From contig JANWZO010000021.1 in assembly GCA_025054615.1 (NCBI GenBank), positions 1 to 39,560 on the forward strand: a DNA stretch of 39,560 bases. The letters are read 5' to 3'. The notes under the pieces are model-generated. The model saw only the letters and a list, made by a program, of their open reading frames with translations, was not told the DNA's origin and ran no database searches. Positions 1,410 through 2,078 of the stretch are shown here, piece after piece; the first letter of the stretch is position 1, and every line of letters starts with the position of its first letter. Both the position numbers and the translations under genes were made by a program. This DNA comes from Kiritimatiellia bacterium. GTDB taxonomy: Bacteria; Verrucomicrobiota; Kiritimatiellia; CAIVKH01.

Positions 1410-1877
1410 TCAAGTGCCCCTCGCGCGGATCATCTCCATCAACACGCGAGCGTGTTCCGCCGAGACCGGCTGAACCGAGAGCCGTTGTCCGCGCTTCAAC
1501 ACGAGCATGTCCCGAAGTCTTTTCTCCGCCCGAAGCTCCGTTAATGTGATGATCGGCTCAACCTTCCGCTCAAACGCAACATCGACAAGGAACCATACCG
1601 GCCGATCGGCGTGGGCCCGCGGATCATAATACGGACTTTTGGGATCAAATTGCGTCGGGTCCGGATACGGCTTGCCCACGACGCGGGCCAGTCCAGCAAT
1701 GCCAGGCGGTTCCGCACTGGAGTGGTAAAAAAAGACAATATCCCCCTCGCGCATCTGGTCGCGCATGAAATTGCGCGCCTGATAGTTGCGGACGCCGGTC
1801 CACGGCGTCCGGCCCTCCCGCGCCAGATCGTCGATCGAATAGACCGACGGCTCGCTCTTCATCAACCAGTAGGCCAT
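1410..1877 (-). CDS. EVE domain-containing protein
   Basis: A 155-residue protein starting MAYWLMKSEPSVYSIDDLAR, then TPWTGVRNYQARNFMRDQM and GDIVFFYHSS, with a late PVWFLVDVAFERK. This is the single-domain EVE (DUF55, THYN1-like) family, with a PUA-like fold that in known members binds modified bases in DNA or RNA. The length is normal for the family and covers the whole domain. No catalytic residues are expected. It lies between the tRNA-Leu and the palindrome array and seems to be a single-gene unit. A truncated copy with 75 of 77 bases identical sits at the left edge of the window. Confidence 0.93.
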   Translation of the reverse strand: MAYWLMKSEPSVYSIDDLAREGRTPWTGVRNYQARNFMRDQMREGDIVFFYHSSAEPPGIAGLARVVGKPYPDPTQFDPKSPYYDPRAHADRPVWFLVDVAFERKVEPIITLTELRAEKRLRDMLVLKRGQRLSVQPVSAEHARVLMEMIRARGT

Positions 1878-1933: not shown

Positions 1934-2078
1934 GTTTCCATGGTATGGAAACGCGGCCCTTTCCGTTTCCATCGAATGGAAATTTTCAGCCCTCACTTTT
2001 CCATAGCATGGAAATTTCGACCCTCACCTTTTCCATGGAATGGAAATTCTCTCACTTACCATTTCCATGGCATGGAAA
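1934..2078. repeat. Array of five 17-bp palindromes, TTTCCATnnnATGGAAA, with a 31-32 bp period
   Basis: Five copies of TTTCCAT-nnn-ATGGAAA start at 1935, 1966, 1998, 2030 and 2062, so the period is 31, 32, 32 and 32 bp. The 7-bp arms are perfect in all five copies, and the first extends to 8 bp (GTTTCCAT/ATGGAAAC). The central triplets differ: ggt, cga, agc, gga, ggc. The 14-15 bp spacers are pyrimidine rich and partly alike, several containing CCTCAC or CTCAC. The array lies upstream of dusB (start 2163) and 57 bp upstream of the EVE start. A 32-bp period is three helical turns, so all sites would face the same side of the DNA. An operator array or a mobile palindrome family are both possible. 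Confidence 0.9.

Follow-up and report, generated by a model that had tools for sequence, protein, structure and literature searches.

Helically phased arrays of an intergenic palindrome in the Kiritimatiellia, possible target sites of a dimeric DNA-binding protein

The window, i.e. the whole stretch of DNA analyzed here (39,560 nucleotides, contig JANWZO010000021.1 of a Kiritimatiellia bacterium), carries five perfect TTTCCATnnnATGGAAA units in the gap between the genes for an EVE-domain protein and a dihydrouridine synthase (Dus). Both genes point outward from the array, with 57 bp separating it from the start of the EVE gene and 84 bp from the ATG of dus at 2163. The Dus assignment is made at the level of the Pfam family, which does not separate DusB. 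The features are arranged as follows.

1410..1877, minus strand, EVE-domain protein gene, flanking (Pfam PF01878, 8e-58)
1935..2078, no strand, whole array of five palindromes, 31-32 bp period
1935..1951, no strand, palindrome 1, TTTCCAT-GGT-ATGGAAA
1952..1965, no strand, spacer 1, 14 bp
1966..1982, no strand, palindrome 2, TTTCCAT-CGA-ATGGAAA
1983..1997, no strand, spacer 2, 15 bp
1998..2014, no strand, palindrome 3, TTTCCAT-AGC-ATGGAAA
2015..2029, no strand, spacer 3, 15 bp, with CCCTCAC common to spacers 2 and 3
2030..2046, no strand, palindrome 4, TTTCCAT-GGA-ATGGAAA
2047..2061, no strand, spacer 4, 15 bp
2062..2078, no strand, palindrome 5, TTTCCAT-GGC-ATGGAAA
2163..3266, plus strand, dihydrouridine synthase (Dus) gene, flanking (Pfam PF01207, 8e-75)

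The first-pass annotation had described five palindromes beginning at 1934, with perfectly conserved 7-bp arms and starts 31, 32, 32, and 32 bp apart. The number, the spacing, and the perfection of the arms in all five units hold, and the array start moves to 1935 (unit starts 1935, 1966, 1998, 2030, and 2062). The central three bases had been said to differ in every copy, which is true of the window (GGT, CGA, AGC, GGA, and GGC) but is not an absolute rule in the genome, where GGC occupies 24 of 124 in-register units. With up to three mismatches allowed, the window holds these five matches and no others, whereas 100 shuffled versions average 1.0 match and never exceed 4; among its 10 perfect 7-3-7 palindromes, the only recurring arm is that of the array (5 of 10). 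The presence of CCCTCAC in both spacers 2 and 3 fits local unit duplication.

Elsewhere in the window, the first letters of the contig repeat part of the EVE gene almost exactly (1-85 versus 1750-1836), and this partial duplicate stands about 1.75 kb away from the complete gene. A tRNA-Leu (CAG) at 1283-1369 on the minus strand adjoins the EVE gene and the duplicated fragment, and this could be a place where an element integrates.

The palindrome is a dispersed family, a possibility that had been entertained only as an alternative and is now borne out. The source genome (2.48 Mb, 51 contigs) contains 107 exact copies, against none of the reversed control, and 183 single TTCCA-N5-TGGAA sites against 2 in the control. 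Arrays number in the dozens, are scattered, and comprise 2-8 units each. All of the 41 clusters that were read are intergenic, lying in 27 tandem, 8 divergent (including that of the window), and 6 convergent gaps. In about half of these clusters a second palindrome follows at an offset of 16-17 bp, at one end only, before the 31-32 bp units begin. This cap amounts to 1.5 helical turns, an exception in the source genome to the whole-turn rule described below, and its orientation, compared with gene direction by eye, shows no consistent direction. A different arrangement occurs in genome G079 of family f26 (L074/L322, 7082-7263; L324, 6842-6992), where both ends of an array carry a 22-bp (2-turn) spacing as a cap and the spacing inside is 31 bp.

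Within the source genome, 93 of the 124 in-register units match at all 14 arm positions. Variation is found at the outermost T/A, the innermost T/A, and the fourth base (TTTACA variants), while the remainder of TTCCA/TGGAA is almost invariant. Spacers from different arrays are 42-54% alike (36-42% for shuffled letters), so that intact arms stand beside diverged spacers, and the arms are therefore kept, or renewed, copy by copy. Spacers inside one array are somewhat more alike, at 62-65%, which fits local duplication of the unit. In genome G030, entire arrays of 145 bp resemble one another at 72-84%, even with the spacers counted. Among congeners of genus g27 the best DNA match reaches about 68% identity, and intergenic DNA is not alignable for an empty-site comparison.

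The first reading of the locus was that of an operator array, serving the EVE gene, dusB, or both. Its position between two divergent starts and the phased arms, which would suit a repressor, agree with this. However, the genome-wide search and count of gene positions find the unit to be multi-copy and intergenic with no promoter bias, and dozens of similar arrays lie beside unrelated genes. The intergenic arrays among 357 examined fall into convergent, tandem, and divergent gaps in the ratio 37/168/61, against a background of 62/294/98 (chi-square p = 0.90); genes here were called by a simple hexamer model applied in frame, and their ends are therefore approximate. In the high-copy genomes G001, G013, and G040, 28-86% of the gaps that measure 60 bp or more contain arrays or single sites, depending on gap type, and the three gap types are used alike. 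No gene family next to the 357 arrays recurs in more than five genomes, and no key gene was found near the arrays of low-copy genomes. At the dus orthologues, arrays are absent from six of seven same-family relatives (G002-G007); G001, which does carry one there, is array-rich, roughly half or more of its intergenic gaps being occupied by arrays. Since context equals background and most dus orthologues lack the array, it is not a dedicated EVE/dus operator, a reading that now seems highly implausible, and the same background context and lack of recurring neighbors speak against the operator array of a wider regulon.

The distances between sites are not free. They cluster at 22, 30-33, 52-53, 61-65, 83, and 93-96 bp and so on, and fit a period of 10.45 bp with R = 0.89 in about 1.1 Mb of contiguous stretches from seven genomes, taken with no selection for arrays. 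The value remains 0.81 once the 29-34 bp peak is removed. For G132 the search took gaps that place sites 35-65 bp apart, and each of the 25 distances listed is 41-43, 51-53, or 62-63 bp (R = 0.93, reached by none of 100,000 random draws). Phasing is not significant (R = 0.18, p = 0.22) in genome G122, whose 2237 sites are mostly solitary.

Whole-turn quantization is a property of duplex DNA as seen by proteins on one face, which makes RNA hairpins a poor explanation. In favor of terminators, mRNA stabilizers, or processing sites, the predicted folding of the array is stronger than that of shuffled sequence (z = -4.2), but this is trivial for palindromes. Moreover, divergent and convergent gaps are used equally, half-site variants such as TTTACA disrupt the stem on one side only, and Rfam yields no match in the window except the tRNA. 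A function in RNA is thus very improbable.

The motif extends far beyond the source genome. If the inner pair is allowed to vary, two TTCCA-N5-TGGAA sites at a distance of 30-33 bp are present in 95 of the 346 genomes of the class, taken to be the Kiritimatiellia, and in 43 of its 121 genera; the reversed control gives none. Positive genomes hold 1 to 1349 pairs, and the range inside one genus is 1 to 98. Single sites in the richest genomes tested number 3209, 2237, 1808, and 1091 against 6, 3, 8, and 3 in the control; in several other families the counts are near background. In an independent genome collection, the matches listed include metagenome-assembled genomes labeled Kiritimatiellae, Lentisphaerae, Verrucomicrobia, PVC group, or uncultured or unnamed bacterium. 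The inner base pair varies between lineages as a dialect, being T-A in the source genome, A-T in most others, and C/T-G/A in family f26.

Two IMG/VR contigs, L210 (2786-2946) and L221 (650-767), carry both genuine arrays and terminase, head protease, or portal genes, the array lying 0.6-1.7 kb upstream of the terminase. Because these contigs bear phage genes, phages of these hosts share the motif.

In the source genome and in genomes of families f1 and f7, more than 85% of sites are intergenic and in arrays. Families f16 and f32 have many sites inside genes, in all three frames. When aligned to solved homologues, AroB, DinB, PNPase, and mevalonate decarboxylase differ little or not at all in length where the site lies, and PrmC has gaps of at most one residue. 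Most of these coding sites therefore look as if they were made by substitution, in the manner of uptake sequences, a point against transposition alone. For TrpF (G071) and RsmE (G045), the palindrome pair lies in or beside an insertion of 20-30 residues. At the trpF locus L064 (1189-1905), an in-frame insertion of about 30 residues holds a pair read as FQGLEK...SKPWN.

Such insertions speak for a selfish or domesticated repeat of the REP/BIME or REPIN kind, copied into intergenic DNA by a transposase acting in trans and devoid of cell function. REP/BIME and REPIN elements are likewise short, high-copy palindromes, mostly extragenic, in pairs or arrays with a variable spacer (PMC3116915, PMC2817692, PMC3733652). 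The source genome has just such short, dispersed, extragenic, multi-copy palindromes, although in f16 and f32 many sites are genic. Uneven copy number among relatives, the likeness of whole arrays in G030, and the arrays on phage contigs also fit. Against this, the arms are short, near-perfect, and intact in copies with diverged spacers, and many coding sites arose by substitution, with a length change of none or one residue. The tag that accompanies REP elements is also missing, as the 82 outer ends contain GTAG/CTAC 0 times and CGTC/GACG 5 times (against an expectation of about 2.2 per tetranucleotide), and target-site duplications at the arrays do not exceed those in shuffles. A link to RAYT/Y1 transposases was rejected, since Y1 genes are present in 20 of 20 genomes tested, whether or not these have arrays, and lack flanking copies of the palindrome. 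A related palindrome array lies within 1.5 kb at 2 of the 20 Y1 loci, that of the source genome not being one of them. At the Y1 locus L058 (1250-1450), two copies of a distinct hairpin repeat rich in GC (CCGAGCGCTGGCTCGG type) lie upstream. Such copying does not predict the strict whole-turn spacing, and a repeat of this kind is an unlikely explanation of the arrays.

A further possibility is a signal for uptake or self-recognition, enriched by biased uptake and recombination. The DNA uptake sequences of Neisseriaceae and Pasteurellaceae share copy numbers of hundreds to thousands and dialects among relatives (PMC3630211, PMC2397512), and the strong genome-wide over-representation with dialects that defines them is found here as well. 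Density reaches about one site per 2 kb, some relatives have lost the sites, and coding sites lie in three frames, mostly by substitution (G122 and G132), as in uptake sequences. ComEC is present in all 14 site-rich genomes, but its presence in 10 of 12 site-poor genomes makes it non-discriminating. The intergenic, arrayed position of most sites in most site-rich lineages and the carriage of arrays by phage contigs speak against this, and palindromy, arrays, and phasing are left unexplained. To our knowledge, no uptake signal is either palindromic or helically phased. Uptake is accordingly a distinctly improbable reading.

Other known systems are instructive by comparison. HIP1 of cyanobacteria is similarly a class-specific short palindrome of extreme genome-wide frequency with lineage variants (PMC4390886), but the palindromes described here have a free center of 3-5 nt and form helically phased arrays. 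The helical register is the feature that distinguishes the family from REP/REPIN, HIP1, and uptake sequences alike. A CRISPR array (repeats above 20 nt with unique spacers of 25-40 nt, and cas genes) does not agree with the 17-nt repeats, the 14-15 nt spacers, and the dozens of scattered arrays of 2-8 units.

The phased operator arrays of dimeric regulators, and the sites of multi-site binders such as ParB and SlmA, likewise consist of palindromes of dimer size that recur along one face of the DNA. The present family differs from these in the absence of a conserved regulon or location, in reaching thousands of sites, and in that the protein is putative. In the open-access papers searched, the commonest 15-mers of the motif do not occur, nor did any account of repeats like these in Kiritimatiellia turn up.

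The preferred interpretation, held with a probability of about 0.58, is that the palindromes are the target sites, genome-wide, of a putative lineage-specific dimeric DNA-binding protein, whose copies would line up next to one another along a single face of the helix. A dimeric protein arrayed in this way had been suggested from the window, and the suggestion gains support from distances in multiples of 10.45 bp across many genomes, from constrained arms, and from variable spacers. The dimer would read two TTCCA half-sites one turn apart, and a site spacing of 2, 3, 4, 5, or 6 whole turns would place neighboring dimers on the same face, where they could touch or bridge. Intergenic arrays would expand through duplication of a unit of about 31 bp, after which selection may keep the arms while the spacers drift. 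The role would be chromosome-wide, in DNA packing, insulating, or marking, rather than in EVE or dus control. Sequence, copy number, phasing, context, arm constraint, and lineage dialects are observed, and from them the protein, its dimeric form, its cooperativity, and its chromosome-wide role are inferred.

Several observations sit uneasily with this protein model. No binding protein emerged from the search for recurring neighbors, and a basic chromosome function does not predict a range of pairs as wide as that seen within the class or within a single genus. The absence of significant phasing in G122 despite its 2237 sites is a further counterpoint, and the one-sided 16-bp end caps set a half-turn neighbor at one end, outside the model's account.

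A bolder form of the same idea, which is tentative and rather improbable, envisages a chromatin-like, sequence-programmed system. A putative dimeric protein would polymerize on one DNA face at hundreds to thousands of intergenic palindromes placed exactly 2, 3, 4, or more turns apart. Its specificity and the full set of its sites would shift in concert, as a dialect, and the phages of these hosts would bear the same arrays.

For genome annotation, these findings carry the warning that such arrays are not to be taken as local operators. For the biology of the class, order in register with the helix, in 28-86% of gaps in three high-copy genomes, points to an unnamed structural or marking protein. 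The dialects offer a direct route to this protein, whose recognition residues would change with the inner base pair.
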